From Cherax quadricarinatus (taxonomy: Eukaryota; Arthropoda; Malacostraca; Decapoda; Parastacidae), in the NCBI RefSeq assembly GCF_038502225.1, contig NC_091323.1, positions 26,948,737 to 27,012,736 of the forward strand: DNA of 64,000 bases. The letters run 5' to 3'. Of this stretch, positions 2,178 through 62,665 are shown in pieces; the first letter of the stretch is position 1; each line of letters opens with the position of its first letter. A model generated the notes under the pieces. It saw only the letters and a list, made by a program, of their open reading frames with translations. It did not search any database and had not been told where the DNA came from. Position numbers and translations under genes: made by a program.

Positions 2178-2228
2178 AATATAATAATATGAAAGTTAAG
2201 ACACATGTGCAACATCTGGATATCTTTA

Positions 2229-2271
2229 TTGTAGTAGACGTTTCGCCATCCAGTGGCTTTATCAATACAGA
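2229..2271 (-). ncRNA. Antisense copies of the E1 hammerhead-like motif
   Basis: Same motif as in the sense array, read on the minus strand. A second copy lies at 2649-2690 and is cut by the flip point, so that copy keeps the core and stem II but its outer stem I ends at the junction. Confidence 0.55.
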
Positions 2272-2778
2272 TTCTAGGACATAATAGGAAGACAGTAGAA
2301 CTATATACAAAAGATGAGGTAATCAGTCCCTCGGCCTTGGAGTTAGTGTTCACAGCATCGTGGTGGAGGAGAGTCTGGAGCAAAGGCAAGAAGACTGGCG
2401 CTTTTTATAGGCGTCAGTGAATGGGACGGGCAGCAGACGAGGGCAGTCACTGGTAGGCGGGATTCCCCAGTGGAAGTAGGTCCTTCCCAAAGAGATGGGT
2501 TAGTTGCAGCAGCCGTGAAGAAGGTCTTGTAGATGTCCTCTGAACCAAGATTCCATGATGTTGCAGTGTCTGACAAGTTGTGCAAGAAAGGTATAAAATA
2601 CCGACAATATGAAAGTTAAGACACATGTGCAACATCTGGATATCTTTATTGTAGTAGACGTTTCGCCATCCAGTGGCTTTATCAATACAGATGCTGTGAA
2701 CACTAACTCCAAGGCCGAGGGACTGATTACCTCATCTTTTGTATATAGTTCTACTGTCTTCCTATTATGTCCTAGAAT

Positions 2779-2821
2779 CTGTATTGATAAAGCCACTGGA
2801 TGGCGAAACGTCTACTACAAT
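2779..2821 (+). ncRNA. Hammerhead-like motif, U3-A8 class (7 sense copies)
   Basis: The same motif recurs at 3199, 3619, 4039, 4459, 4879 and 5299. Order: stem I strand GTA, core TTGATAA (in place of CTGANGA), one extra A, stem II GCCA-CTGGA-TGGC, then GAAACGT (stem III reduced to AC/GT), C at position 17, and stem I return TAC. AATAAAG follows within a few bases. C3 and G8 are replaced by U and A, which preserves that core pair but may weaken cleavage. Function is inferred from the fold only. Confidence 0.6.
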
Positions 2822-3059
2822 AAAGATATCCAGATGTTGCACATGTGTCTTAACTTTCATATTGTCGGTATTTTATACCTTTCTTGCACAACTTGTCAGA
2901 CACTGCAACATCATGGAATCTTGGTTCAGAGGACATCTACAAGACCTTCTTCACGGCTGCTGCAACTAACCCATCTCTTTGGGAAGGACCTACTTCCACT
3001 GGGGAATCCCGCCTACCAGTGACTGCCCTCGTCTGCTGCCCGTCCCATTCACTGACGCC

Positions 3060-3068
3060 TATAAAAAG
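3060..3068 (+). promoter_or_regulatory. TATA-like box in each 420-bp unit
   Basis: TATAAAAAG recurs at 3480, 3900, 4320, 4740 and 5160, and once antisense at about 2401-2409. It sits about 140 bp upstream of the hammerhead motif. The related elements have TATATAAG at the equivalent place (7195, 23810, 26746). An internal RNA polymerase II promoter is inferred. Confidence 0.45.
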
Positions 3069-5421
3069 CGCCAGTCTTCTTGCCTTTGCTCCAGACTCTC
3101 CTCCACCACGATGCTGTGAACACTAACTCCAAGGCCGAGGGACTGATTACCTCATCTTTTGTATATAGTTCTACTGTCTTCCTATTATGTCCTAGAATCT
3201 GTATTGATAAAGCCACTGGATGGCGAAACGTCTACTACAATAAAGATATCCAGATGTTGCACATGTGTCTTAACTTTCATATTGTCGGTATTTTATACCT
3301 TTCTTGCACAACTTGTCAGACACTGCAACATCATGGAATCTTGGTTCAGAGGACATCTACAAGACCTTCTTCACGGCTGCTGCAACTAACCCATCTCTTT
3401 GGGAAGGACCTACTTCCACTGGGGAATCCCGCCTACCAGTGACTGCCCTCGTCTGCTGCCCGTCCCATTCACTGACGCCTATAAAAAGCGCCAGTCTTCT
3501 TGCCTTTGCTCCAGACTCTCCTCCACCACGATGCTGTGAACACTAACTCCAAGGCCGAGGGACTGATTACCTCATCTTTTGTATATAGTTCTACTGTCTT
3601 CCTATTATGTCCTAGAATCTGTATTGATAAAGCCACTGGATGGCGAAACGTCTACTACAATAAAGATATCCAGATGTTGCACATGTGTCTTAACTTTCAT
3701 ATTGTCGGTATTTTATACCTTTCTTGCACAACTTGTCAGACACTGCAACATCATGGAATCTTGGTTCAGAGGACATCTACAAGACCTTCTTCACGGCTGC
3801 TGCAACTAACCCATCTCTTTGGGAAGGACCTACTTCCACTGGGGAATCCCGCCTACCAGTGACTGCCCTCGTCTGCTGCCCGTCCCATTCACTGACGCCT
3901 ATAAAAAGCGCCAGTCTTCTTGCCTTTGCTCCAGACTCTCCTCCACCACGATGCTGTGAACACTAACTCCAAGGCCGAGGGACTGATTACCTCATCTTTT
4001 GTATATAGTTCTACTGTCTTCCTATTATGTCCTAGAATCTGTATTGATAAAGCCACTGGATGGCGAAACGTCTACTACAATAAAGATATCCAGATGTTGC
4101 ACATGTGTCTTAACTTTCATATTGTCGGTATTTTATACCTTTCTTGCACAACTTGTCAGACACTGCAACATCATGGAATCTTGGTTCAGAGGACATCTAC
4201 AAGACCTTCTTCACGGCTGCTGCAACTAACCCATCTCTTTGGGAAGGACCTACTTCCACTGGGGAATCCCGCCTACCAGTGACTGCCCTCGTCTGCTGCC
4301 CGTCCCATTCACTGACGCCTATAAAAAGCGCCAGTCTTCTTGCCTTTGCTCCAGACTCTCCTCCACCACGATGCTGTGAACACTAACTCCAAGGCCGAGG
4401 GACTGATTACCTCATCTTTTGTATATAGTTCTACTGTCTTCCTATTATGTCCTAGAATCTGTATTGATAAAGCCACTGGATGGCGAAACGTCTACTACAA
4501 TAAAGATATCCAGATGTTGCACATGTGTCTTAACTTTCATATTGTCGGTATTTTATACCTTTCTTGCACAACTTGTCAGACACTGCAACATCATGGAATC
4601 TTGGTTCAGAGGACATCTACAAGACCTTCTTCACGGCTGCTGCAACTAACCCATCTCTTTGGGAAGGACCTACTTCCACTGGGGAATCCCGCCTACCAGT
4701 GACTGCCCTCGTCTGCTGCCCGTCCCATTCACTGACGCCTATAAAAAGCGCCAGTCTTCTTGCCTTTGCTCCAGACTCTCCTCCACCACGATGCTGTGAA
4801 CACTAACTCCAAGGCCGAGGGACTGATTACCTCATCTTTTGTATATAGTTCTACTGTCTTCCTATTATGTCCTAGAATCTGTATTGATAAAGCCACTGGA
4901 TGGCGAAACGTCTACTACAATAAAGATATCCAGATGTTGCACATGTGTCTTAACTTTCATATTGTCGGTATTTTATACCTTTCTTGCACAACTTGTCAGA
5001 CACTGCAACATCATGGAATCTTGGTTCAGAGGACATCTACAAGACCTTCTTCACGGCTGCTGCAACTAACCCATCTCTTTGGGAAGGACCTACTTCCACT
5101 GGGGAATCCCGCCTACCAGTGACTGCCCTCGTCTGCTGCCCGTCCCATTCACTGACGCCTATAAAAAGCGCCAGTCTTCTTGCCTTTGCTCCAGACTCTC
5201 CTCCACCACGATGCTGTGAACACTAACTCCAAGGCCGAGGGACTGATTACCTCATCTTTTGTATATAGTTCTACTGTCTTCCTATTATGTCCTAGAATCT
5301 GTATTGATAAAGCCACTGGATGGCGAAACGTCTACTACAATAAAGATATCCAGATGTTGCACATGTGTCTTAACTTTCATATTGTCGGTATTTTATACCT
5401 TTCTTGCACAATATAATAATA

Positions 5422-6660: not shown

Positions 6661-7194
6661 TATGAAGAAATTGAGACACATGTGCAACATCTGGGAATCT
6701 TTATTGTAGACGTTTCGCCATCCAGTGGCTTTTTCAATACAAATTCCAGGACATAACTTGAAGACAGGAGAACTATGTACAGAAGATGAGGTAATCAGTC
6801 CCTCAACCTAGTAGTAGGTGCAAAGAGCACCATAGTCGTGGAGATTCTGAAGCAGAAGCATAATTCTCCTGTCTTCAAGTAATGTCCAGGAATTTGTATT
6901 AAAAAAGCCACTGGATGGCGAAACGTCTACAATAAAGATACCCAGATGTTGCACATGCGTCTCAATTTCATCTTGTCGGTATTGTATACCATTCTTGTAC
7001 AACCTGTCACACTGCAACATCATGGAATCTTGATTCTGAGGACATGCACATAATCTTCACGACTACGACAACTACTTCTACAACTAACCCATCTCTTTGG
7101 GTAGGACCTACTTCCACTGGGGAATCCCGCCTACCAGTGACTATGCCCTCGTCTGCTACCCGTCCCATTTCCACCTGACGTTACTATATAAGCG

Positions 7195-7202
7195 TCAGGC
7201 GC
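7195..7202 (+). promoter_or_regulatory. TATA-like box of E2
   Basis: TATATAAG lies 128 bp upstream of the ribozyme motif at 7323, close to the spacing in elements at 23441 and 26294. Confidence 0.4.
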
Positions 7203-7322
7203 CTTGCTTCTGCTTCAGAATCTCCACGACTATGGTGCTCTTTGCACCTACTGCTAGGTTGAGGGACTGATTACCTCATCTTCTGTACATAGTTCTCCTG
7301 TCTTCAAGTTATGTCCTGGAAT

Positions 7323-7361
7323 TTGTATTGAAAAAGCCACTGGATGGCGAAACGTCTACAA
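7323..7361 (+). ncRNA. Hammerhead-like motif with five-pair stem I
   Basis: Stem I TTGTA pairs perfectly with TACAA downstream. Between them: TTGAAAA, an extra A, GCCA-CTGGA-TGGC, GAAACGT and C, giving the classic GUC cleavage triplet. C3 is U and G8 is A. A sister sense copy at 6894-6932 has a further core mutation (TTAAAAA), and an antisense copy lies at 6702-6743 on the minus strand. Confidence 0.6.
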
Positions 7362-7424
7362 TAAAGATACCCAGATGTTGCACATGTGTCTCAATTTCAT
7401 CTTGTCGGTATTGTATACCATTCT

Positions 7425-9650: not shown

Positions 9651-9856
9651 GAAGACACATGTGCAACAGTTGCGTACGTTTATTGATAAAACTTTTCCAT
9701 CGGCTGAGGAACTGACCAGCTCAAATATTTTTTCTCTGAGGTTGAGGGACTGATTACATTATTATTACTTCATTACTACTGCTCCCTTTATATTTGACTG
9801 AAGAAGCCTACTTTAGAGGTGAAATGTTTCATCAATAAAGATACCCAACTGGTGCA
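9651..9856 (+). mobile_element. Degenerate HHR element
   Basis: Antisense GACACATGTGCAACAG at 9654-9669 and a sense ribozyme relic near 9797-9840 (CTGAAGAAGCCTAC, then a decayed stem and GAAATGTTTC) followed by AATAAAG. It runs directly into the 31-bp minisatellite. Confidence 0.6.
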
Positions 9857-12712
9857 GCAGTGGTAGATGTGCCAACTGCTAGGTGCAGCAGTGGTAGACG
9901 TGCCCACTGCAAGGTGCAGCAGTGGTAGACGTGCCCACTGCAAGGTGCAGCAGTGGCAGACGTGCCCATCACTAGGTGCAGCAGTGGTAGACGTGCCCAT
10001 CACTAGGTGCAGCAGTGGTAGACGTGCCCATCACTAGGTGCAGCAGTGGTAGACGTGCCCATCACTAGGTGCAGCAGTGGTAGACGTGCCCATCACTAGG
10101 TGCACCAGTGGTAGACGTGCCCATCACTAGGTGCAGCAGTGGTAGACGTGCCCATCACTAGGTGCAGCAGTGGTAGACGTGCCCATCACTAGGTGCAGCA
10201 GTGGTAGACGTGCCCATCACTAGGTGCAGCAGTGGTAGACGTGCCCATCACTAGGTGCAGCAGTGGTAGACGTGCCCATCACTAGGTGCAGCAGTGGTAG
10301 ACGTGCCCATCACTAGGTGCAGCAGTGGTAGACGTGCCCATCACTAGGTGCAGCAGTGGTAGACGTGCCCATCACTAGGTGCAGCAGTGGTAGACGTGCC
10401 CATCACTAGGTGCAGCAGTGGTAGACGTGCCCATCACTAGGTGCAGCAGTGGTAGACGTGCCCATCACTAGGTGCAGCAGTGGTAGACGTGCCCATCACT
10501 AGATGCAGCAGTGGTAGACGTGCCCACCACTAGATGCAGCAGTGGTAGACGTGCCCACCACTAGATGCAGCAGTGGTAGACGTGCCCACTGCAAGGTGCA
10601 GCAATGGTAGACGTGCCCATCACTAGGTGCAGCAGTGGTAGACGTGCCCATCACTAGGTGCAGCAGTGGTAGACGTGCCCATCACTAGGTGCAGCAGTGG
10701 TAGACGTGCCCACCACTAGATGCAGCAGTGGTAGACGTGCCCATCACTAGGTGCAGCAGTGGTAGACGTGCCCATCACTAGGTGCAGCAGTGGTAGACGT
10801 GCCCATCACTAGGTGCAGCAGTGGTAGACGTGCCCACCACTAGATGCAGCAGTGGTAGACGTGCCCACCACTAGATGCAGCAGTGGTAGACGTGCCCACC
10901 ACTAGATGCAGCAGTGGTAGACGTGCCCACCACTAGATGCAGCAGTGGTAGACGTGCCCACCACTAGATGCAGCAGTGGTAGACGTGCCCACTGCAAGGT
11001 GCAGCAATGGTAGACGTGCCCATCACTAGGTGCAGCAGTGGTAGACGTGCCCATCACTAGGTGCAGCAGTGGTAGACGTGCCCACCACTAGATGCAGCAG
11101 TGGTAGACGTGCCCACCACTAGATGCAGCAGTGGTAGACGTGCCCATCACTAGGTGCAGCAGTGGTAGACGTGCCCATCACTAGGTGCAGCAGTGGTAGA
11201 CGTGCCCATCACTAGGTGCAGCAGTGGTAGACGTGCCCATCACTAGGTGCAGCAGTGGTAGACGTGCCCATCACTAGGTGCAGCAGTGGTAGACGTGCCC
11301 ATCACTAGGTGCAGCAGTGGTAGACGTGCCCATCACTAGGTGCAGCAGTGGTAGACGTGCCCATCACTAGGTGCAGCAGTGGTAGACGTGCCCATCACTA
11401 GGTGCAGCAGTGGTAGACGTGCCCATCACTAGGTGCAGCAGTGGTAGACGTGCCCATCACTAGGTGCAGCAGTGGTAGACGTGCCCATCACTAGATGCAG
11501 CAGTGGTAGACGTGCCCACCACTAGATGCAGCAGTGGTAGACGTGCCCACCACTAGATGCAGCAGTGGTAGACGTGCCCACTGCAAGGTGCAGCAATGGT
11601 AGACGTGCCCATCACTAGGTGCAGCAGTGGTAGACGTGCCCATCACTAGGTGCAGCAGTGGTAGACGTGCCCATCACTAGGTGCAGCAGTGGTAGACGTG
11701 CCCACCACTAGATGCAGCAGTGGTAGACGTGCCCATCACTAGGTGCAGCAGTGGTAGACGTGCCCATCACTAGGTGCAGCAGTGGTAGACGTGCCCACCA
11801 CTAGATGCAGCAGTGGTAGACGTGCCCATCACTAGGTGCAGCAGTGGTAGACGTGCCCATCACTAGGTGCAGCAGTGGTAGACGTGCCCATCACTAGGTG
11901 CAGCAGTGGTAGACGTGCCCACCACTAGATGCAGCAGTGGTAGACGTGCCCACCACTAGATGCAGCAGTGGTAGACGTGCCCACCACTAGATGCAGCAGT
12001 GGTAGACGTGCCCACCACTAGATGCAGCAGTGGTAGACGTGCCCACCACTAGATGCAGCAGTGGTAGACGTGCCCACTGCAAGGTGCAGCAATGGTAGAC
12101 GTGCCCATCACTAGGTGCAGCAGTGGTAGACGTGCCCATCACTAGGTGCAGCAGTGGTAGACGTGCCCACCACTAGATGCAGCAGTGGTAGACGTGCCCA
12201 CCACTAGATGCAGCAGTGGTAGACGTGCCCATCACTAGGTGCAGCAGTGGTAGACGTGCCCATCACTAGGTGCAGCAGTGGTAGACGTGCCCACCACTAG
12301 ATGCAGCAGTGGTAGACGTGCCCACCACTAGATGCAGCAGTGGTAGACGTGCCCACCACTAGATGCAGCAGTGGTAGACGTGCCCACTGCAAGGTGCAGC
12401 AATGGTAGATGTGCCCATCACTAGGTGCAGCAGTGGTAGACGTGCCCATCACTAGGTGCAGCAGTGGTAGACGTGCCCACCACTAGATGCAGCAGTGGTA
12501 GACGTGCCCATCACTAGGTGCAGCAATGGTAGACGTGCCCATCACTAGGTGCAGCAGTGGTAGACGTGCCCATCACTAGGTGCAGCAGTGGTAGACGTGC
12601 TCATCACTAGGTGCAGCAGTGGTAGACGTGCCCATCACTAGGTGCAGCAGTGGTAGACGTGCCCATCACTAGGTGCAGCAGTGGTAGACGTGCCCACCAC
12701 TAGATGCAGCAG
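9857..12712 (+). repeat. 31-bp minisatellite, about 92 copies
   Basis: The unit begins GGTGCAGCAGTGGTAGACG and ends in one of three variants: CCCATCACTA, CCCACCACTA or CCCACTGCAA. The rare CACTGCAAGG/GCAATGG unit recurs at about 10587, 10990, 11579, 12075 and 12385; the intervals are 13, 19, 16 and 10 units. Neighbouring variant orders also recur, indicating block duplications inside the array. 31 is not a multiple of three, so no repeated protein is encoded. Confidence 0.95.
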
Positions 12713-13209: not shown

Positions 13210-13364
13210 CAAAAAGGCACAATACCGTGACTGGAACGATACACAAATAACCCGCACATAAAAGAGAGAAGCTTACGACGACGTTTCGGTCCGACTTTGT
13301 CAATGGTCCAAGTCGGACCGAAACGTCGTCGTAAGCTTCTCTCTTTTATGTGCGGGTTATTTGT
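13210..13364 (-). mobile_element. HHR-related palindromic element, GGTCC subfamily
   Basis: Two near-perfect arms (starting about 13246 and ending 13364) carry the stem GGTCC-AAGTC-GGACC followed by GAAACGTCGTCG. The flanks share GAATAGTAAAAATAA (13195-13209 and 13365-13379), 15 bp. The 3' tail on the left, read on the minus strand, ends CACGGTATTGTGCC, the same hairpin as in the element at 9211. The CUGANGA box is replaced by TTGTCAA. Confidence 0.8.
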
Positions 13365-13396: not shown

Positions 13397-13733
13397 TGAA
13401 AGTTAAGACACATGTGCAACATCTGGATATCTTTATTGTAGACGTTTCGCCATCCAGTGGCTTCATCAGTACAGATTCTAGGACATAATTACAAGACAGT
13501 AGAACTATATACAAAAGATGAGGTAATCAGTCCCTCAGCCTTTGAGTTAGGGTTCACAGCATCGTGGTGGTGGAGAATCTGGTGCAAAGGCAAGAAGACT
13601 GGCGATTATATAGGCGTCAGTGGATAAGGACGTGTAGAAGACGAGGGCATAGTCACTGGTAGGCGGGATTCCACAGTGGAAGTAGGTCCTTCCCAAAGGG
13701 ATGGGTTAGTTGTAGCAGCCGTGCAGTTTAAAA
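13397..13733 (-). mobile_element. HHR element E3, single minus-strand unit
   Basis: Minus-strand copy of the E1-type unit, lacking an inverted partner. It runs from the GTCTTAACTTTC block through the ribozyme and TATA region and stops inside the body at 13733. It carries the most canonical ribozyme core in the window. Confidence 0.75.
13437..13473 (-). ncRNA. Hammerhead ribozyme motif with canonical core
   Basis: On the minus strand: stem I TGTA, core CTGATGA, one extra A, stem II GCCA-CTGGA-TGGC, GAA, stem III AC/GT without loop, C at the cleavage position, then TACA closing stem I. C3, U4, G5, A6, G8, A9, G12, A13 and A14 are all as required for a hammerhead, and the cleavage triplet is GUC. 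The insertion of A after A9 and the minimal stem III are the unusual points; dimer formation through the ACGT palindrome is possible. Confidence 0.7.
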
Positions 13734-20098: not shown

Positions 20099-20476
20099 GT
20101 AAGACACATATGCAACAGTTAGGTATCTTTATTATGAAACGTTTCGCCTACACAGTAGGCTTCTTCAGTCAAGTACAGAAAAGTTGATAGAAGCAGAAGA
20201 TACTTGAAGACGATGTAATCAGTCCATCACCCTTAAAGTTTTGAGGTGGTCAGTCCCTCAGTCTGGAGAAGAGCATTGTTCCATAGTATGAAACAATATG
20301 GAGAAGAAGTGACTGATTACATCGTCTTCAAGTATCTTCTGCTTCTATCAACTTTTCTGTACTTGACTGAAGAAGCCTACTGTGTAGGCGAAACGTTTCA
20401 TAATAAAGATACCTAACTGTTGCATATGTGTCTTACCTAACAACCTGTCGGTATTTTATACCATTTTAATGTTCAA
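20099..20476 (+). mobile_element. HHR element E6 with 13-bp TSD
   Basis: Target-site duplication CATGTCCATAAAG is perfect (20086-20098 and 20477-20489). The antisense arm starts GTAAGACACATATGC; the sense arm ends with CAACCTGTCGGTATTTTATACC and TTTTAATGTTCA. Ribozyme motifs lie at 20131-20175 (minus) and 20360-20405 (plus): CTGAAGA, A, GCCTAC-TGT-GTAGGC, GAAACGT, T. Stem I is short here (TGA/TCA). The central part is deleted and carries no TATA box. Confidence 0.9.
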
Positions 20477-23370: not shown

Positions 23371-23510
23371 CTGTTCGAAACATGAACATCAAAATGGTAT
23401 ACAATACCGACAGGTTGTTAGGTAAGACACATATGCAACATGTGTGATGAATGGTTTTGAAAACCGACAAGTTGAAGAATTGAGACACTTATGCAACACA
23501 TGGGAATCTT

Positions 23511-23555
23511 TATTGAAGAAACGTTTCGCCACACAGTGGCTTCATCAGTCCAATA
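23511..23555 (-). ncRNA. Hammerhead ribozyme motif, antisense arm
   Basis: Reverse-complement partner of the motif at 23934; same core and stems. Confidence 0.65.
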
Positions 23556-23809
23556 CAAAGTAGAAATGGGTAAGGAGAGTAGAAGTATGAGGTAATCAGT
23601 CCCTCAACCTGGATTCGATGTGTTCAGTCCATCACTCTTGTAGTAAGTGCAGCATAGGGCCAGAGAGGTGGCTTATATACTGCGGTGAGATGAGTTGAAG
23701 CAGGTACAAAGACTTCAACGCTTGCCCAAACCTTTGGACGATGACCTACTTGCATTAGTGGCAGGTCCCACTAAGATCCCGCCTCCTGCTTCAACTCATC
23801 TCACCGCAG

Positions 23810-23817
23810 TATATAAG
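23810..23817 (+). promoter_or_regulatory. TATA-like box of the nested HHR element
   Basis: TATATAAG, 124 bp upstream of the ribozyme motif. A mirrored copy occurs in the antisense arm near 23670. Confidence 0.4.
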
Positions 23818-23933
23818 CCACCTCTCTGGCCCTATGCTGCACTTACTACAAGAGTGATGGACTGAACACATCGAATCCAGGTTGAGGGACTGATTACCTC
23901 ATACTTCTACTCTCCTTACCCATTTCTACTTTG

Positions 23934-23978
23934 TATTGGACTGATGAAGCCACTGTGTGGCGAAACGTTTCTTCAATA
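23934..23978 (+). ncRNA. Hammerhead ribozyme motif, intact core
   Basis: Stem I TATTGGA pairs with TC-(TT)-CAATA (seven pairs, two-base bulge). Core CTGATGA, extra A, stem II GCCAC-TGT-GTGGC, GAA, AC/GT, U at 17. All catalytic positions are canonical. The mirror copy is at 23511-23555 on the minus strand. Confidence 0.7.
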
Positions 23979-24039
23979 AAGATTCCCATGTGTTGCATAA
24001 GTGTCTCAATTCTTCACATATGCAACAGTTAGACAACTT

Positions 24040-24085
24040 TATTCCGAAACGTTTCGCCTACACAGTAGGCTTCTTCAGTCGAATA
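24040..24085 (-). ncRNA. Hammerhead ribozyme motif of E9 (minus copy)
   Basis: Core CTGAAGA (N7 = A), extra A, stem II GCCTAC-TGT-GTAGGC, GAAACGT, T. Stem I TATTCGA pairs with TCG-(G)-AATA, seven pairs with a one-base bulge. Confidence 0.65.
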
Positions 24086-24543
24086 CAGAAAATAGGCAGG
24101 AACAGTAGAGATGTGAAGACGATGTAATCAGTCCATCACCCTTGTAGTCGTAGAATTTGAGGGTGTCAGTCCCTCGGCCTGGAGAAGTTCAGTTCCATAG
24201 TCAGGAACTATCTGAAGATCAAGCGACAGTGCGGAGACTTAAATACTGTCGGAAGGAGAGGTGCAGAGTAGTAGTAGTAGTAGAAGTAGTAGTAGTAGTA
24301 GTGAGAATGTAACCACCGAGAGGTCATGTCCCTCTCAGATCCAACACTTCTCACTTGAAAAGCTTGTCCTAGGTGTTTTCTGTACCAAGATGCCATGTGT
24401 TGCAGTGTCTGACAAGATGAACATCAAAATGGTATACAATACCGACAGGTTGTTAGGTAAGACACATATGCAACAGTTAGACAACTTTATTCCGAAACGT
24501 TTCGCCTATACAGAAGAAGAAGCCTACTGTGTAGGCGAAACGT

Positions 24544-25434
24544 AAACTCCTCTGCAACTTCCTAGACGGCCGTACCATGAGAATCAAATTCCAAGGCTGT
24601 TACTCTGACTACTTCACACTAAATGCTGGAGTACCCCAGGGATCTGTCCTCTCCCCTACCCTCTACATTTTATACACTAACGACATTCCAACACCTGTGT
24701 ACCAAAACTCCATCACACTAGCCTATGCAGACGACATTACACAACTCATCACCCATGCCAATGTAGATACACTCACACACAAAACACAAAATGAGGTCGA
24801 CAGGATAGCCATCTGGGAACAAAAATGGAGGATCAAAACCAATGCAGCTAAATCCAGCATTACATATTTTAACTACAGAAAACGTGATCCTCCATTACCT
24901 GTCGAGCTCAGAACAGCTGACACCCGCACTTACATCCCCATGACACAATCTGTCACTGTCCTTGGCGTTAATCTTGACTACCTTCTACGCTTACACGGAC
25001 ACATTCACTCAAGGCATGCAATAGCTAGTAAGGCCCTTGCGGGCCTCTACAAGCTGAAACATGCCTCTCAACGCACCAAACTACACCTCTACAAATCCCT
25101 TATACGTCCTCTGATAACTTACTCTCCTCTAGCCCTCTCTCTTGCAGCAAAAACAAACTTACTTAAACTGCAGCGTGTCCAGAACAAGGCGCTGCGCTGG
25201 GTGCTTGATGTCAGATGGGAGGACTTCGCCACATGCGAGTCTCTACATGCCCAGTTAGACATCCCTGCGCTGAATCTATACTGGAAGACGCTCAGTGACA
25301 GACAGATTGACAAACTCGTGACACGACATGACTACTGGACCTCTCTCCTTGACGAAGACATTCGCAGACCCATAAACCAACACAACCTTTTCTATTCCTT
25401 GCATGATCCGGCTCCTAACCCTATTTACAAATAA
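24544..25434 (+). pseudogene. Jockey-like reverse transcriptase, 5'-truncated
   Basis: An open frame of 285 codons from the first ATG (24577), extending open back to 24544. It contains the RT B motif GVPQGSVLSP (residues 18-27) and the catalytic YADD (50-53), followed by a thumb and C-terminal region with LIRPLITYSPLA and QRVQNKALRWV. The endonuclease and RT fingers are missing, so it cannot act alone. About 330 bp of probable 3' UTR follow, containing a loose internal duplication, and end in a GTTC repeat. Its left edge abuts an HHR motif cut immediately after GAAACGT. The type is from the motif pattern (Jockey clade); the fragment is intact enough to be recent. Confidence 0.75.
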
Positions 25435-25911
25435 CCTTGGATTCTCCGAGAGGTACCTTCTATGACAGGTACCATTCTCTGATCCACGTTCGCCTTACCC
25501 TTTGGGTTAAGACATGGCTCAGTTCTACACTCCTCTCTAGCTCTAAACGTCGCATGTCCCTTCCTTCCCGCTCACCCCACCGGAGTCCCAACAGAAGAGT
25601 CTGAATTTCTCTTCTCAAATATCTGTCCCACGATCACCTCGCTGCTGGGTTAAGCCCTGGCTCTATTTCTACGACTAAGAACACTCCTCTCCAGCACTGT
25701 TCTTCGTCTGTCCCGTCTTCCCCGCTCATCCCAGTTGGGATCTTACCTGAACTTTGGTTCGTTCGTTCGTTCGCTTGATCTTCAGATAGTTCCTGACTAT
25801 GGAACTGAACTTCTCCAGGCCGAGGGACTGACACCCTCAAATTCTACGACTACAAGGGTGATGGACTGATTACATCGTCTTCACATCTCTACTGTTCCTG
25901 CCTATTTTCTG

Positions 25912-25957
25912 TATTCGACTGAAGAAGCCTACTGTGTAGGCGAAACGTTTCGGAATA
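25912..25957 (+). ncRNA. Hammerhead ribozyme motif of E9 (plus copy)
   Basis: Same sequence as the 24040 copy, in the opposite orientation. Stem I differs from the 23934 motif by a compensatory C-G for G-C change at its third pair. Confidence 0.65.
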
Positions 25958-26331
25958 AAGTTGTCTAACTGTTGCATATGTGTCTTACCTGTTCGAAACA
26001 TTTTGTACGTAAGGGATCTGTTCATACCAGGTACGATAATTCTCTCTAACAAGAATAGACATTTTCTTCCCATTTGGTGAGGCAGAGGGTGGTGAGGTAG
26101 CGAAAGTGTGTTAAAATTTGCATAAACTTTAAATTCCTGTCCTGTGTCACATTAAATTCTTTGGTTGCCCAAACACTGCTACAGCCCCTAAACTTGTACA
26201 TTAACCCTTTAGCCAACTTCTGAGCGCTGGCTGCCACTCATGGTATTTGTGTATCATTCTTGGTAATGACTGCCTGTACGAGAATTTATCATGATGAAGA
26301 TTGAGACACTTATGCAGCATATGGGAATCTT

Positions 26332-26376
26332 TATTCAGGAAACGTTTCGCCACACAGTGGCTTCATCAGTCCAATA
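26332..26376 (-). ncRNA. Hammerhead ribozyme motif, antisense arm
   Basis: Reverse-complement partner of the motif at 26869. Confidence 0.65.
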
Positions 26377-26745
26377 CAAAGAGGAAGGCATAAGGAGAGG
26401 AGGAGTATGAGGTAATCAGTCCCTCAGCCTGGAGTCGATGTGTTCAGTCCATCAATCTTGTAGAATGTACAGCATAGGGCCGTAGACGTGGCTTATATAC
26501 TGTAGTGAGGTGAGGTGAAGCAGGCGGAGGCGGGGTCATAGTAGTACCATCCACTAGTCGAAGTAGGTCTTCGTCCAAAGGTTTTTCAAACCATTCATCA
26601 CAACTGTCAGACACTGCAGCATCATGGGATCTTGTTACAAAGAATTCTTCAACACTTGTTCAACCTTTGGACGAAGACCTACTTCGACTAGTGGATGGTA
26701 CCACTATGACCCCGCCTCCGCCTGCTTCACCTCACCTCACTACAG

Positions 26746-26753
26746 TATATAAG
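26746..26753 (+). promoter_or_regulatory. TATA-like box
   Basis: TATATAAG, 123 bp upstream of the ribozyme motif at 26869. The surrounding leader resembles that at 23810. Confidence 0.4.
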
Positions 26754-26868
26754 CCACGTCTACGGCCCTATGCTGTACATTCTACAAGATTGATGGACTG
26801 AACACATTGACTCCAGGCTGAGGGACTGATTACCTCATACTCCTCCTCTCCTTACGCCTTCCTCTTTG

Positions 26869-26913
26869 TATTGGACTGATGAAGCCACTGTGTGGCGAAA
26901 CGTTTCCTGAATA
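26869..26913 (+). ncRNA. Hammerhead ribozyme motif, intact core
   Basis: Stem I TATTGGA with TCC-(TG)-AATA, core CTGATGA, extra A, GCCAC-TGT-GTGGC, GAAACGT, T. The mirror copy is at 26332-26376 on the minus strand. Confidence 0.7.
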
Positions 26914-27003
26914 AAGATTCCCATATGCTGCATAAGTGTCTCAATCTTCAACTTGTCGGTTTTTCAAACCATTCATCACAAGAATTTATCATGTTGAAAA
27001 TAG

Positions 27004-27781: not shown

Positions 27782-28126
27782 TGAAAGTTAAGACACTTGT
27801 GCAACATCTGGTTATCTTTATTGTAAACGTTTCGCCATCCAGTGGCTTTATCAATACAAATTCTTGGACATAATTAGAAAACAGAAGAACTATATACAAA
27901 AGATGAGGTAATCAGTCCCTCAGCCTTGGAGGTGGTGTTTACAACACCGTCCAAGGCTGAGGGACTGATTACCTCATCTTTTGTATATAGTTCTTCTGTT
28001 TTCTAATTATGTCCAAGAATTTGTATTGATAAAGCCACTGGATGGCGAAACGTTTACAATAAAGATAACCAGATGTTGCACAAGTGTCTTAACTTTCATC
28101 TTGTCGGTATTGTATACCTGTCCTGT
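27782..28126 (+). mobile_element. Palindromic HHR element with TSD, 345 bp
   Basis: ACAAAGTGTTGGT is duplicated exactly (27769-27781 and 28127-28139; the match extends two bases by chance). Arms of about 150 bp are nearly perfect inverted copies around 27940. Belongs to the E1 subfamily with the body deleted. The tail is CTTGTCGGTATTGTATACC. Confidence 0.9.
28021..28059 (+). ncRNA. Hammerhead-like motif, U3-A8 class
   Basis: TTGTA / TACAA form a perfect five-pair stem I. Core TTGATAA, extra A, GCCA-CTGGA-TGGC, GAAACGT, T. The mirror copy is at 27821-27859 (minus). Confidence 0.6.
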
Positions 28127-28920: not shown

Positions 28921-29352
28921 CTGGAAATAAATGGTATAAAATACCGACACAATGGAAAAATGGAAATAAATGGTATAAAATACCGACACAATGGAAATAT
29001 AAACACATATGCAGTATAATGTGATCCTTTATTGACTACGTTTCGACCACACAGTGGGCTTTATCAAGTCACAAACAAATCTGATGTGTTTGACTTGATA
29101 AAGTAAAAGGACACAAGTGCAACTAATGTAACATTTTATTGTGGCAACGTTTCGCTCTCCAGGAGCTTTATCAAGCTCCTGGAGAGCGAAACGTTGCCAC
29201 AATAAAATGTCACAGTAGTTGCACTTGTGTCCTTTTACTTTACATATTGTCGGTAATTCTACCAACTTTATTACAATGACTTTATCAAGTCCACTGTGTG
29301 GGCGAAACGTCAATAAAGGATCACATTATACTGCTTCTGTGTTTATTTTTCC
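28921..29352 (-). mobile_element. HHR element, GTCAA subfamily, carrying a nested GCTCC element
   Basis: Flanks ACTCCCAGGTCA (28909-28920) and ACTCCCAGCTCA (29353-29364) match at 11 of 12. The 3' tail at left is duplicated as a 39-bp tandem (from 28922 and 28961), including its GGTATAAAATACC hairpin. The minus-strand ribozyme is at 29032-29072. A GCTCC-subfamily palindrome (about 29108-29275) lies inside. At 29280-29293 the box CTTGATAAAG appears inverted as CTTTATCAAG. Confidence 0.75.
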
Positions 29353-29658
29353 ACTCCCAGCTCAGGCTGAGAGACTTCTTTATTTCATTTACGCAACCAG
29401 TCCTGTGACGGAATGAGACAATAAAGCATTACTAGTTAGTCTTCCTACAAACTTGCTCAATAAAAAAAATCAAACCCTTTTACAACGTTAAGGTAACCGA
29501 GCGTCTTCGAGGAAAAGCGGTTGCTTAACTGAGAGAGTGAGGTTGGAGTAAGATAAGTCTATAAAGCAGGTTATAGATCTGGAATGAATGGGAGGTGAAA
29601 GGAGCTGTACTTGTTTTATTTACAAAGAACAATAACAGTTTGGTTATTCATTGCCTTA
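29353..29658. other. Unique spacer
   Basis: No gene recognised between the HHR element and the CR1 3' end. Confidence 0.5.
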
Positions 29659-32541
29659 AACATAAGAACATAAGAACATAAGAACGAAGGAACACTGCAG
29701 AAGGCCTACTGGCCCATGCGAGGCAGGTCCAAGTCTCCTACCGGCTTAAGCCAATGCACCCAACCTAGTCAGGTCAGGTCACATTGACTTAAGGGAGGAA
29801 CACGGCAACCGACCTGTTAGCACAAGCTATCAGGTCTAACTCACACCCACCCACATCTACTCATGTATTTATCCAACCTATTTTTAAAGCTACACAACGT
29901 TCTGGCCTCTATAACGGTACTTGGGAGTTTGTTCCACTCATCCACAACTCTATTACCAAACCAGTACTTTCCTGTATCCTTCCTGAATCTGAATTTTTCC
30001 AACTTAAAACCATTGCTGCGAGTCCTGTCTAGGCTAGATATTTTCAGCACACTATTTACATCCCCTTTATTTATTCCTGTCTTCCACTTATACACCTCAA
30101 TCATATCCCCCCTAATTCTACGTCTTTCTAGAGAGTGCAGTTTCAGGGCCCTTAGTCTATCCTCATAGGGAAGGTTTCTGATACATGGGATCATCTTTGT
30201 CATCCTCCTTTGTACATTTTCCAGAGAATTTATATCCATTCTGTAATACGGTGACCAAAACTGTGCAGCATAATCTAAATGAGGCCTAACCAAGGATGTA
30301 TAGAGTTGAAGAACAACCTGAGGACTCCTATTATTTATGCTTCTTGATATGAAGCCAAGGATTCTATTAGCTTTATTGCGAACACTTATGCACTGTTGTC
30401 TTGGTTTCAGATTACTGCTAACCAGAACTCCTAAATCTTTTTCGCAATCCGTAATATTAAGATCTACATTATTTAGTTTATATGTGGCATGGTTATTGTC
30501 CTGTCCAACATTTAGAACTTTGCATTTGTCTATATTAAACTGCATCTGCCACTTCTCCGACCACTGCATCAGTCTATTCAAATCTTCCTGGAGTGCTCGA
30601 ATGTCCTCGTCAGAATGAATTCGACGGCCTATTTTGGTGTCATCGGCAAACTTGCCGATGTCGCTCTTTATGCCCTCATCAATGTCGTTTATGTAGATTG
30701 TGAACAGCAGGAGGCCCAACACTGACCCCTGTGGAACACCGCTCGTGACGCTTCCCCACTCTGATTTCTCCCCATTTATGCAAACTCTCTGCTGCCTATT
30801 TGTCAACCATGCCTCTATCCAGGAAAAAATTTCTCCTCCTATTCCATGTGCTTTAATTTTCCTCAATAGTCTCTGATGTGGGACCCTGTCAAAAGCCTTA
30901 CTGAAGTCCATATACACAATATCATATTGATTACCATGATCTACCTCCTCAAATACCTTAGTGAAAAAAGTTAATAAATTCGTAAGGCAGGAACGCCCCT
31001 TTGTAAAACCATGCTGAGATTCGTTGATTAATTTATGCTTTTCAAGGTGGCTACGAACTGCCTCGGCAATTATTGATTCCATAAATTTTCCCACTATGGA
31101 GGTTAGGCTTATTGGTCTATAGTTCGAAGCTAAGGACCTGTCACCTGTTTTGAAAATAGGTATCACATTTGCCATTTTCCACTTATCTGGCACCATGCCA
31201 GTTTGTAGTGATATGTTGAAAAGATTAGCCAAAGGTGTGCTAAGCTCCTCTTTACATTCCTTTAGAACCCTTGCATACAGTTCATCAGGGCCTGGGGATT
31301 TGTTAGGTTTTAATTTATCTATTTGCCTAAGGACCATGTCACTTGTGACCCTAATAGTGCACAGTTTATTATCGTCCTGTTCTTCATAATTTATCATTAC
31401 TGGAATATCGCTGGTATCCTCCTGTGTAAAAACTGAGAGGAAGTATGTGTTAAAAATTCTACACATTTCCTTATCACTGTCAGTGAGCTGACCCGAGGAA
31501 CTTTTGAGTGGGCCTATCTTGTCCCTGATCTTACTTCTGTATACCTGAAAGAATCCTTTTGGGTTAGTCTTCGATTCTCTTGCAACTTTAACCTCATAAT
31601 CTCTTTTTGCTTTTCTGATTCCCTTTTTTATTTCTCTCTTTAACTGAATATATCGATTTCTTAATTGCCCCTCTCCTCTTTTGATTTGCCTATATAAGCC
31701 TCTCTTTTGACCAATCAGATATTTTAATCTATTGTTCATCCATTTAGGATCATTTTTGTTTGATCTGATTTCCCTATTTGGAACATAATTTGACTGAGCA
31801 GCTAGAACTATGCCATGGAAAGCATCATATCGGCAACCATCACCACCTACCTGACCCTTAGTCAGGTCATTCCAGTTCAGCCCACCTAAGTAATTTTTCA
31901 GTCCTATGAAATCAGCCAAGCGAAAGTCAGGGACGGAGACTTGATTGCCATTATTAGGGGAATTCCATGATATGTTAAAACTGAGTGATTTGTGATCACT
32001 CTCCCCAAGCTCATCATTAACCTCAAGATTATTAATTAGTGTTTCCCTACTGGCAAGAACCAAGTCAAGGAGGTTATTTCCCCTAGTTGGCTCTGTCACA
32101 AACTGTTTTAAAAAACAATCCTGGATCGTATCAAGAAAGTCACCCGACTCTAAATTTCCTGTCAAATTGCTCCAGTCAATCTGTCTATAGTTGAAATCTC
32201 CCATTAGCACAACATTTTCGTATGTAGATGCCTTACGAATTTCGTCCCATAGAAGTTTACTGCACTCCCTATCAAGATTTGGGGCCCTGTAAATCACACC
32301 CAAAATTAGTTTTTCTCGACCCTCGAGAAGCTGTAACCGAACAGATTCAGTGGCTGACGCTTCTAATTTAATATCTTGTCTAACACAACAATTTAAATTG
32401 TCTCTGACATACATCGCTACTCCACCACCTTTCCTGTTGACCCTGTCAGTGTGGAATAATTTATAGCCTTGTATGTGACATTCAGAGGGCATCTCTCTAT
32501 CTTTCAGATTGAGCCAGGTCTCTGTTATAGCAATAATATTC
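29659..32541 (-). mobile_element. CR1 retrotransposon, 5'-truncated copy
   Basis: On the minus strand this is collinear with the full-length element at 47661-51808 from within the endonuclease domain to the 3' end. The 3' terminus is an octamer repeat (GTTCTTAT, here read as ATAAGAAC), as is characteristic of CR1 elements. Homology stops at about 32541. Confidence 0.93.
29841..32492 (-). CDS. CR1 ORF2 (endonuclease-RT), N-terminally truncated
   Basis: 883 codons from an internal Met to the natural stop, uninterrupted. It keeps the AP-endonuclease motifs GDFN and SDH, and the RT motifs YMDFSKAFD, SGVPQGSVLG and FADD. Missing is the endonuclease start (N and ETW motifs); the frame stays open upstream to the truncation near 32541. 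It differs from the full copy at few residues, notably L for P in the B motif (VLGLLLF) and H for Q (AFHGIV). The role in the intact element would be target nicking and target-primed reverse transcription in the nucleus. This copy lacks a promoter and ORF1 and is presumably inactive. Confidence 0.92.
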   Translation of the reverse strand: MPSECHIQGYKLFHTDRVNRKGGGVAMYVRDNLNCCVRQDIKLEASATESVRLQLLEGREKLILGVIYRAPNLDRECSKLLWDEIRKASTYENVVLMGDFNYRQIDWSNLTGNLESGDFLDTIQDCFLKQFVTEPTRGNNLLDLVLASRETLINNLEVNDELGESDHKSLSFNISWNSPNNGNQVSVPDFRLADFIGLKNYLGGLNWNDLTKGQVGGDGCRYDAFHGIVLAAQSNYVPNREIRSNKNDPKWMNNRLKYLIGQKRGLYRQIKRGEGQLRNRYIQLKREIKKGIRKAKRDYEVKVARESKTNPKGFFQVYRSKIRDKIGPLKSSSGQLTDSDKEMCRIFNTYFLSVFTQEDTSDIPVMINYEEQDDNKLCTIRVTSDMVLRQIDKLKPNKSPGPDELYARVLKECKEELSTPLANLFNISLQTGMVPDKWKMANVIPIFKTGDRSLASNYRPISLTSIVGKFMESIIAEAVRSHLEKHKLINESQHGFTKGRSCLTNLLTFFTKVFEEVDHGNQYDIVYMDFSKAFDRVPHQRLLRKIKAHGIGGEIFSWIEAWLTNRQQRVCINGEKSEWGSVTSGVPQGSVLGLLLFTIYINDIDEGIKSDIGKFADDTKIGRRIHSDEDIRALQEDLNRLMQWSEKWQMQFNIDKCKVLNVGQDNNHATYKLNNVDLNITDCEKDLGVLVSSNLKPRQQCISVRNKANRILGFISRSINNRSPQVVLQLYTSLVRPHLDYAAQFWSPYYRMDINSLENVQRRMTKMIPCIRNLPYEDRLRALKLHSLERRRIRGDMIEVYKWKTGINKGDVNSVLKISSLDRTRSNGFKLEKFRFRKDTGKYWFGNRVVDEWNKLPSTVIEARTLCSFKNRLDKYMSRCGWV

Positions 32542-32562
32542 TGTTTATATCAAATTTTCACG

Positions 32563-32611: not shown

Positions 32612-32645
32612 TTATAATAATTTTGGTACAATTACTGACATGTTG

Positions 32646-33139
32646 TTAGGTAAGACACATATGCAACAGTTAGGTATCTTTATTTTGAAACGTTTCGCCT
32701 ACACAGTAGGCTTCTTCAGTCGAGTACAGAAAAGTTGATAGAAGCAGAAGATACTTGAAGACGATGTAATCAGTCCATCACCCTGAATAAAGATTCCCAT
32801 ATGCTGCATAAGTGTCTCAATCTTCAACTTGTCGGTTTTTCAAACCATTCATCATCACCCTTAAAGTTTTGAGGTGGTCAGTCCCTCAGTCTGGAGAAGA
32901 GCATTGTTTCATACTATGGAACAATGCTCTTCTCCAGACTGAGGGACTGACCACCTCAAAACTTTAAGGGTGGACTAATTACATCGTCTTCAAGTATCTT
33001 CTGCTTCTATCAACTTTTCTGTACTCGACTGAAGAAGCCTACTGTGTAGGCGAAACGTTTCGAAATAAAGATACCTAACTGTTGCATGTGTGTCTTACCT
33101 AACAACCTGTCGGTATTTTATACCATTTTAATGTTCAAG
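32646..33139 (+). mobile_element. HHR element with 11-bp TSD
   Basis: CTGACATGTTG flanks both sides (32635-32645 and 33140-33150). The antisense arm starts GTAAGACACATATGC; the tail is CCTGTCGGTATTTTATACC. Ribozyme motifs at 32681-32727 (minus) and 33022-33067 (plus): CTGAAGA, GCCTAC-TGT-GTAGGC, GAAACGT, T, with stem I TCGA/TCGA. The left arm is interrupted by the insertion at 32782. Confidence 0.85.
32782..32851 (+). mobile_element. Solo HHR 3' tail inserted in another HHR element
   Basis: About 70 bp identical to the end of the element at 26294: from TGAATAAAGATTCCC through CTTGTCGG and TTTTTCAAACC to CATTCATC. CATCACCC occurs on both sides of it (8-9 bp). The piece starts right where the ribozyme would cleave (see finding). 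Confidence 0.75.
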
Positions 33140-33723: not shown

Positions 33724-33965
33724 ATCAAAATGGTATACAATACCGACAGGTTGTTAGGTAAGACACATATGCAACAGTTAGACAACTTTATTCCGAAACG
33801 TTTCGCCTACACAGTAGGCTTCTTCAGTCGAATACAGAAAGTAGGCAGGAACACACATCTCTACTGTTCCTGCCTACTTTCTGTATTCGACTGAAGAAGC
33901 CTACTGTGTAGGCGAAACGTTTCGGAATAAAGTTGTCTAACTGTTGCATATGTGTCTTACCTAAC
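33724..33965 (-). mobile_element. Palindromic HHR element with 12-bp TSD
   Basis: TAACTGATGTTT is duplicated (33712-33723 and 33966-33977). Arms are near-perfect. Ribozymes at 33789-33834 (minus) and 33884-33929 (plus), identical in sequence to those of E9: TATTCGA/TCG-(G)-AATA, CTGAAGA, GCCTAC-TGT-GTAGGC. Confidence 0.88.
33884..33929 (+). ncRNA. Hammerhead ribozyme motif, intact core
   Basis: All catalytic bases present (N7 = A), extra A after A9, stem III AC/GT. The mirror copy is at 33789-33834 (minus). Confidence 0.65.
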
Positions 33966-34084: not shown

Positions 34085-34289
34085 GGAAATAAATGGTATA
34101 AAATACCGACACAGTGGAAATATAAACACATATGCAGTATAATGTGATCCTTTATTGACTACGTTTCGCCCACATAGTGGGCTTTTTCAAGTCACAAACA
34201 GATCTGTTTGTGACTTGAAAAAGCCCACTGTGTGGGCGAAACGTAGTCAATAAAGGATCACATTATACTGCATGTGCGTTTATATTTCC
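34085..34289 (-). mobile_element. Palindromic HHR element with perfect 13-bp TSD, 205 bp
   Basis: AGCTGCGGGAGCT is duplicated exactly (34072-34084 and 34290-34302). GTCAA subfamily: motifs at 34155-34195 (minus) and 34210-34250 (plus) with GCCCAC-TGT-GTGGGC, GAAACGT, A. The core is TTGAAAA. The tail hairpin GGTATAAAATACC is at left only. Confidence 0.92.
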
Positions 34290-34391: not shown

Positions 34392-34600
34392 AACCGACAA
34401 GTTGATAAATTAGAGATTTGCAACACTTCGGTATCTTTATTGATGAAACGTTTCGCGCCACAGTGGCTTCATCAGTCCTGATATTCACCATTCTTCTTTG
34501 TATAAGACTGAACCATTTATCTACAGGATTGATGAAGCCACTGTGTGGCGAAACGTTTCATCAGTAAAGATACACAGGTGATGCACAATTGTCTAATTTA
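34392..34600 (-). mobile_element. HHR element, partly decayed
   Basis: Arms carry CTGATGA or TTGATGA with GCCACTGTGTGGC and GAAACGTTTC. The left end has rc of CAACTTGTCGGTTTTC. A target-site duplication is not clear (TATCAAG only). Confidence 0.65.
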
Positions 34601-40985: not shown

Positions 40986-42066
40986 TCAAAGGTAAGGTCC
41001 ATTCTGGTCTTAGGAATGATAGATGCGGCTACCTGTTCTATGGGAGAGAACGAGACAAGTGTGAATGCTGGGGCACTCCTAGGAGTGGGGTGAATAAGTA
41101 GGGCTTTCCTGGTGCAGGCATGAATGATGTATAGAAAAACCTCAAGCGAAGCGACAACGTTGTCGTTATACTTACGCTCTCCTCCCAAGAATTGTCTTCA
41201 CAGATTTTGAGGTTACAACGGAAGAAACCTATGACGACGCCACGCTTAGTCATGAGGTAGTGGGAAAAGAAAAACGTTAGATCATTATTCCTGGTGAACT
41301 TATGATAAACCCTATTTGTGTTTACCGTTGACGAGTGTTACTAAGAAAGGCTGTTTGCGGTTCTGGGGATTACCTTCCCAACGGCCCAGTCTCAGATCTG
41401 GCCTCCTAGGCTGTACAGGGGATAAAAACTAAGAAGCGCACATGAAAGTAAAGGTACTGTATATTAATACTGAATGTAGGTAGACGTTTTTAAGATTTAC
41501 CCGTCATCTTACGTGTCCACGAGACTGATCAGCGATGCGTCCCGAGTACAAAAAAAATAACAGGTTTTCCTTTCACACTTAGCGGGCATAAACCGGGTTA
41601 TTACCCTAATGAGTTGATAATTCCAATAAAGACGTGTATGTGCCAGTTTTATTGTTAAAATGGTACTTCATGTGAAAGACTTGTTAAAGTTGAGTATATG
41701 ATTATATCTACAAATTTCGCGAGTTTTAATGCTACCTTTTAAAAGCCGACCTACTGTGAGTAGAGATAGATGAAGAATGTCACAATACCAGTTACTAAAA
41801 TTCATAGCCCTTACCTAGAGGAAACTTTTAACGGCGTTTCAGTCCGTCGAGGAATTATAAAGCCGCCACAATTTTGATGTGTTGACACTAGGTGTAGTCA
41901 CCTTTTGACCACCTGTGTAATTGACCTTACTCTTTACCCCACCCATACATCTCGGAAACTCCCTGTATACGTAGTAGTTTGGTGCATAGCAACTATTCAG
42001 GGAGGTGCTACCATCATGTCATGCCACTATGAAAAGCTACGTTTTACACTATCTGGATTAATTCTT
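40986..42066. other. No recognised gene; HHR-like relic near 41820
   Basis: GAAACTTTTAACGGCGTTTCAG at 41820 faintly recalls an HHR arm. Otherwise unique. Confidence 0.4.
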
Positions 42067-61459: not shown

Positions 61460-61855
61460 CCTTAAGAGGTACGTAAGTACCCCTGTCTTATAATAAGATG
61501 CTCATTTTTCCACTATAATTTACCTTGTCCATAATTACCATCGCATTTGCTGTTTCGTAAGGCGAGGCTTTGCTCAGACTTCTACAACACAGTTGTCCTC
61601 AAAGACTTGCTAAGTTATACCATGAAGTAAAGACAGATCCTAGACTTCACCTTACGAAACACACAAAGCAAATACGATAGTAATTATGGACAAGGTAGAT
61701 TATAGGGGGAAATAACATGTAAAGTAAAAGGACACAAGTGCAACTAATGTGACATTTTATTGTGGCAACGTTTCGCTCTCCAGGAACTTTATCAAGCCGT
61801 TACAAACAGTACATGGACACACGTTAGAAGACAGGGAAACTGACGTGCCCCTTAA
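61460..61855. mobile_element. Foldback element FB2 with nested HHR fragment
   Basis: Homologous to FB1 at 14653: arms with TTGTCCATAATTACCATC and GATAGTAATTATGGACAAGG. The right arm is interrupted at 61723-61808 by a GCTCC-subfamily HHR fragment (minus: GGC, TTGATAA, A, GTTCCTGGAGAGC, GAAACGT, T, GCC), which is therefore younger. Confidence 0.75.
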
Positions 61856-62417: not shown

Positions 62418-62665
62418 TGTGGAACAGTTAGGTATCTTTATTACGAAACGTTTCGCCTACACAGTAGTCTTCATCAGTCGAATATAGAAGAGTTAGCAGA
62501 AGCGGTAGAGATGTGAAGACGATGCAGTTTACTGCTTCTACTAACTCTTCTGTATTCGACTGAAGAAGCCTACTGTGTAGGCGACACGTTTCGGAATAAA
62601 GATACCTAACTGTTGCACATGTGTCTTGTATATCAACCTGTCGGTATTGTATACCATATTTATAT
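62418..62665 (+). mobile_element. HHR element, one ribozyme mutated
   Basis: Minus motif at 62439-62484: TATTCGA, CTGATGA, one stem II mismatch, GAAACGT, T, TCG-(T)-AATA. The plus motif at 62553-62598 has GACA for GAAA and should be dead. The tail CCTGTCGGTATTGTATACC is at right. Confidence 0.8.

Follow-up and report, generated by a model that had tools for sequence, protein, structure and literature searches.

The hammerhead-like blocks dispersed through the window (the whole 64,000-nucleotide stretch of Cherax quadricarinatus DNA analysed here) are very probably minimal type I hammerhead ribozymes of Penelope-like terminal repeats (pLTRs), and their carriers non-coding copies derived from such repeats. 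This kind of ribozyme is already described and is not new; minimal hammerheads of Penelope-like elements (PLEs) were reportedly treated by Cervera and de la Pena in 2014 and by Lunse, Weinberg and Breaker in 2017. What the window offers is many diverged copies together, among them core variants compensated by nature, and one possible cut-site insertion. The class had been proposed in an earlier note made from the letters alone, and it is supported by covariation of both stems and of pair 3-8, together with eight carriers that have the terminal-repeat anatomy of PLEs.

The copy singled out in that note, at 13437-13473, is a single arm of family A on the minus strand (13441..13473). Read directly, it runs CTGTA, then CTGATGA A GCCACTGGATGGC GAAACGTC, then TACAATAAAG, with C3 at 13469, stem II formed by GCCA/TGGC, and GAAACGTC stopping at 13441. 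Its predicted cleavage site is GUC, and its description as a hammerhead with such a site is borne out.

GAAACGT occurs 79 times in the whole window (39 on the plus strand, 40 on the minus) against 4.7 expected from a first-order Markov model. A descriptor consisting of NTGANNA, a stem II of at least 3 pairs and GAAAC, which fixes only UGA, A9, GAAAC and stem II, matches 36 sites; in 100 Markov windows it found 1.08 on average and never more than 4. The match at 40346 has none of the flanks and is probably due to chance. Nine of the 35 remaining sites sit in one tandem and inverted array of 420-bp units; thus the independent elements are fewer than the sites. Outside the crayfish, contigs of prokaryotes gave 73 stretches where about 60 are expected by my own arithmetic, which is chance level. 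For viral contigs, a first pattern was too loose (at least 120 stretches) and two tighter patterns gave no match.

A search with covariance models, which had been suggested as a check, did not recover the hammerheads. At the gathering threshold Rfam gave no match in the whole window; at E 10 it gave 32, none above its own family threshold and none a hammerhead, and on a short stretch RF00008 scored 15.3 bits against a threshold of 48.5. Most of the E 10 matches are to microRNA models, in my view an effect of the long palindromes, and the rest are to snoRNA and other models. In my reading, the Rfam models were not made for hammerheads that lack helix III.

Such hammerheads are widespread. According to portions of PMC7761336 and PMC6155905, thousands of minimal type I hammerheads, usually without helix III, are scattered over non-coding regions in many animal genomes, are sometimes found in the pLTRs of PLEs, and may cut as dimers. 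The copies in the window resemble the published PLE hammerheads, as far as these excerpts describe them, in their type I core, their missing or tiny helix III and their dispersal in non-coding repeats, and no difference is demonstrable. Among the best matches of a limited literature search there was no report from a crayfish, which decides nothing.

The largest carrier is the family A array at 2186..5411, which holds minus-strand motifs at 2265 and 2685 and seven plus-strand motifs between 2784 and 5304 in 420-bp units. Its tandem part covers 2690-5411, its cores read TTGATAA and a tail lies at its right end. This array raises an unlikely but conceivable alternative, that the ribozymes are real but those of animal retrozymes (non-LTR elements with small circular RNAs), the 420-bp tandem unit being the retrozyme. 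Excerpts of PMC7229834 describe, from many animals, crustaceans included, retrozyme-like repeats that measure about 150-450 bp and contain type I hammerheads, and the likeness extends to the tandem arrangement of units several hundred bases long, each holding a single type I hammerhead. Unlike those repeats as described there, copies in the window are mirror-image and lack a stem III hairpin: many carriers are mirror-image pairs, eight of them with a one-sided tail, which is the pattern of PLEs. Loop-loop contacts between helices I and II are a mark of canonical retrozyme motifs. The two origins also overlap, because retrozymes may themselves derive from PLEs (PMC11722881, in part).

The evidence that the blocks are ribozymes at all, of Penelope-like or other origin, comes from an alignment of 28 distinct copies representing families A to G, in which pair 3-8 and four pairs in each of stems I and II were scored. 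Identical copies were excluded, as were the distinct but overlapping D copy 19945 and the F family; others, such as 19070, 22056, 22871, 24525, 29167, 29281, 33507 and 36219, were too decayed, and two decayed copies met later (18069 and 23013) also stand outside the alignment. Copies were chosen by their GAAACGT-like end, and mostly by UGA and A9 too, which inflates the apparent conservation of these letters; neither stem I nor positions 3 and 8 played any part in the choice.

Standard pairs fill 89.0% of the cells, against 70.5 (SD 1.9) when copies are shuffled and 35-52 when the partners are slid. Double changes are found in 44 cells, against 14.3 in the shuffles and 3-8 in the slid controls, and the covariation score is 0.506, against 0.207 shuffled and at most 0.155 slid. 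For three of the five measures none of 500 shuffles did as well. The other two do not rise above the shuffles: 7 pairs show a double change, a figure reached by 124 of 500, and 14 pair types occur, a figure reached by 428 of 500. The slid control weighs more here, because shuffles preserve the make-up of the columns but not the kinship of the copies.

In stem I, pair 2.1-1.1 is A-U in 20 copies and C-G in 7 (1 unpaired), pair 2.2-1.2 is G-C in 18, U-A in 5 and A-U in 4 (1 unpaired), and pair 2.3-1.3 is G-C in 14, C-G in 5, U-A in 3 and G-U in 1 (5 unpaired). The fourth pair is broken in 11 of the 28 copies, where bulges set in; the one- or two-base bulges noted previously in some stem I pairings are indeed needed in several. 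Pair 3 of stem II is C-G in 22 copies, U-A in 3 and unpaired in 3. RNAalifold recovers both stems from the alignment unprompted. Together with the pairing and double-change figures, this agrees with the covariation that the earlier note had picked out by eye in stems I and II.

Pair 3-8 is C-G in 15 copies, U-A in 12 and U-G in 1, with none broken. Family A holds both states (C-G at 13469; U-A at 2784, 7328 and 28026), and the two arms of family G differ, one having C-G and the other U-G. Since 3-8 keeps pairing and both states occur inside family A, the form TTGANAA is a swapped pair and not decay. The same swap is published: in the part of Perreault and others (2011) that I could consult (PMC3088659, section 8), C3-G8 covaries to U3-A8 in several hammerheads, proven active in vitro. 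There the swap is known from several examples, whereas here 12 of 28 distinct copies show it in one window. By comparison, among 27 chance look-alikes (two of them identical), taken from 193 fetched loci of prokaryotes, phages and viruses, I read 3-8 as Watson-Crick in only 5 and as wobble in 3.

With U3-A8 counted as intact, every catalytic letter is kept in 23 of the 28 copies, and H17 is U in 19, C in 4, A in 4 and G in 1. In every one of the 28, a single additional A separates A9 from stem II. Compared with RF00008 it is an insertion, which the earlier note does not mention, and it speaks against the hammerhead reading. Stem III is a loopless palindrome, A15.1 C15.2 G16.2 U16.1, able to pair with its counterpart in a second motif but not within one, and this ACGU is intact in 25 of 28. 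Similar extra A's occur in PLE hammerheads, where they and an ACGU stem III may be usual. A pairing of loop II with a downstream UCCAG, seen by eye in family A, failed in other families.

These observations bear on a second alternative, that the block is a long imperfect hairpin of the repeat kept for some other reason (protein binding or a DNA end), its likeness to a hammerhead being incidental. In its favour, the minimum-energy folds of some copies with C3-G8 and U7 (13469, 23941 and 26876) pair G5-G8 with C15.2-H17. Across the alignment, however, 73% of the cells at 5-8/15.2-17 pair and one of them shows a double change, against 100% and 12 double changes for 3-8, and the conserved ACGU would have no evident use in a lone hairpin. 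I regard this alternative as very unlikely; the covariation of stems I and II and of 3-8, as read from the sequences, supports a hammerhead over a plain hairpin.

The anatomy of the carriers is what ties these putative ribozymes to Penelope-like terminal repeats. Many motifs form outward-facing pairs on opposite strands, and within-window alignment revealed palindromic stretches of 317 bp (98%), 220 bp (95%) and 183 bp (96%), along with weaker mirror-image stretches at 76-95%, several of which are only 76-87% self-complementary. The stretches examined number 21, two of which (22361 and 22639) do not qualify as clear mirror-image carriers. Exact target duplications of 12-15 bp flank eight of the 21, all confirmed by script after two had first been completed by eye. 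The other 13 have no convincing target duplication. For comparison, random pairs shared an exact word of at least 11 bp in 2 of 300 cases.

In family A, the element at 27784..28126 (motifs at 27854 on the minus and 28026 on the plus strand) has a 15-bp target duplication and a tail at the right, and that at 6667..7398 (6737 minus, 7328 plus) has TTGAAAA cores and arms of 194 bp at 99%. Family B supplies 26294..26980 (26369 minus, 26876 plus; arms 289 bp, 99%), with a 13-bp duplication and a tail at the right, and 23441..24014 (23548 minus, 23941 plus; arms 232 bp, 100%), with a 13-bp duplication and a tail at the left. The latter duplication falls in a sequence that recurs in the window (7 copies), which makes it the weakest taken alone, but the target is the one expected in the interrupted element. 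That element, 23384..25989 of family C (24078 minus, 25919 plus; arms 212 bp, 100%), has a 12-bp target duplication and carries both the nested 23441-24014 element and a reverse-transcriptase fragment. Also in family C are 20099..20476 (20168 minus, 20367 plus; 13-bp duplication, tail right), 33724..33965 (33827 minus, 33891 plus; 12-bp duplication, tail left), 32624..33125 (32719 minus, 33029 plus; arms 155 bp, 95%) and a pair at 62439..62598 (62477 minus, 62560 plus), of which 62560 reads GACACGT and is broken. Family E is represented by 34085..34289 (34190 minus, 34215 plus), with TTGAAAA cores, a 13-bp duplication and a tail at the left, and by a mirror-image stretch at 28992..29353, which is 83% self-complementary and has a family D pair inside. 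A family F mirror-image element at 13210..13364 has a broken core, a 15-bp target duplication and a one-sided tail. The family G mirror-image stretch at 34406..34600 (78%) has C3-G8 at 34475 on the minus strand and U3-G8 at 34529 on the plus strand, and a single family D motif with a TTGATAA core lies on the minus strand at 61759..61803.

In all eight delimited elements I read one end as having some 29-40 extra bases that include a small hairpin, and the other as lacking them. Thus, it is highly improbable that the mirror-image units are fold-back DNA transposons bearing the motif at their ends by accident: inverted arms 98-100% identical in five elements (within-window alignment) would suit such transposons, but the eight delimited elements have unequal ends, with a tail at one end only, they range in total length from 155 to 2606 bp with duplications of 12-15 bp, and AATAAA lies 3' of most motifs.

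Inverted terminal repeats with a tail at one end, as in these eight carriers, are the terminal-repeat anatomy of PLEs, and a close parallel is the Penelope of Adineta vaga. The portion of PMC3846280 available describes inverted pLTRs there, one of which has a 31-bp tail at its 3' end, target duplications of 8-10 bp, palindromic junctions ascribed to self-priming, and capture of unrelated DNA. The window elements share the inverted terminal repeats, the palindromic junctions, the tail at one end, the duplication and the captured DNA. They differ from the elements described in that portion in their duplications (12-15 bp) and in that A. vaga PLEs carry an ORF or captured genes, whereas no PLE ORF was seen in the window among ORFs read by eye. 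Nor was a Penelope protein, which would join a reverse transcriptase to a GIY-YIG endonuclease, seen among the ORFs, but as their lists were only read by eye and one ORF was run against Pfam, this is no real absence; that ORF, a reverse transcriptase, resembles a captured LINE.

The tail has a recurrent hairpin, GTCGGTA..TACC (GGTTT..AAACC in family B), for example at 20439-20476, 26951-26980 and 28099-28126, which is perhaps the start of reverse transcription. Upstream of the motif, a TATAWA box stands at -143/-144 from C3 in three of the six family A rows and, in all four rows of family B (two elements), at -130/-131, the background being 0.21 per 160 nt; in family C it has no fixed position. 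The word GGACTGATTAC, or a near variant, occurs 51-64 nt before C3 in the same orientation in all six A rows, all four B rows and 5 of 10 C rows, and is possibly part of a promoter.

Copies that begin at the predicted cut site were sought from the 3' flanks. An earlier flank pattern, with 185 anchors, was not strict enough, and the 62 nt that follow H17 were run through BLAST instead. Of its 57 flanks, 42 are continuous with a GAAACGT-like end and eight more were added by reading. The remaining seven comprise four that are weak or situated in the tail, a collapsed arm pair (33640), and two that begin just after H17. One solo insertion, at 32782..32854, is a plus-strand 3' fragment of family B inside the left arm of the 32624..33125 element, its 73 nt identical to the 26876 copy. 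It begins at the second base after H17 and ends in the B tail, followed by TCACCCTTAAAG, and the uninterrupted target is found at 20219. Because three bases (CCT) are common to insert and target, the true start lies 1-4 nt after the predicted cut. By my reading the target duplication is 4-9 bp, depending on how the shared bases are assigned, and is shorter than in the mirror-image elements. I estimate that such a start would arise by chance in a few per cent of cases. Its nearness to the cut fits a 3' cleavage product used as template, a lead from a single case. The family A fragment at 21940, in which homology begins one base after the predicted cut, is not counted as a second case, as it may be a decayed continuous copy.

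If the reading as Penelope-like hammerheads is correct, transcripts of families A and B would start slightly downstream of the TATA box, about 100-115 nt upstream of the motif. Because stem III is only a loopless ACGU, a single motif would not suffice for cleavage. Two of them, on tandem units or on separate RNAs, would pair via ACGU/ACGU as stem III, and the dimer would then cut after H17. Mobilisation would fall to a PLE enzyme, and each of the mirror-image arm pairs that carriers often form probably stems from one RNA in one insertion event. A bolder possibility, which I consider quite unlikely, is that cut RNA yields short solo insertions from the cleavage site and uncut RNA yields mirror-image ones, perhaps via RNAs joined by ACGU. 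If true, the insertions would record, in fossil form, that the ribozyme had been active in the animal.

In favour of cutting are the compensated core and the conserved ACGU; equilibrium folding speaks against it in several contexts. For each of the six complete mirror-image transcripts folded, the prediction is that G12 pairs outside the motif (P 1.00), the ribozyme pairing with its own antisense arm. Since that arm is predicted to capture the ribozyme in all six, no cleavage is expected of complete mirror-image copies as single transcripts, in which the ribozyme is predicted to be locked. Three right arms were also folded alone, and those of the 33724 and 26294 elements are predicted to form the motif, while that of 27784 is not. 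In the reported 13469 arm the predicted probability that G12 pairs outside the motif is 0.98, and the 420-nt units have predicted probabilities of 0.64-0.84 for stem II and about 0.05 for stem I. All these folds treat a single strand without dimers, and therefore may be unfair to a ribozyme that acts as one. The available part of PMC11167929 is relevant here: the hammerhead of an Anolis PLE cut only with protein present and was dispensable for insertion in vitro, and the authors saw no RNA-seq ends at its cut site.

Other retroelements also lie in the window. Between the arms of the 23384..25989 element is a reverse-transcriptase fragment at 24541-25775 (RVT_1, E 5e-14) that has a (GTTC)n end. 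The reverse transcriptase at 24535-25434 was considered as a mobilising enzyme whose 3' end would contain the hammerhead, and rejected: its (GTTC)n end precedes the right arm, which suggests a LINE that the element captured or that inserted into it. Three very similar long reverse-transcriptase ORFs, which I read as CR1/L2-like, lie at 29841-32549, 41878-44508 and 48665-51631; the last, the only one of the three searched, has a best protein match 61% identical. Finally, a satellite of 92 copies of 31-bp units occupies 9851-12712, its 10001-12000 part having 58% G+C.
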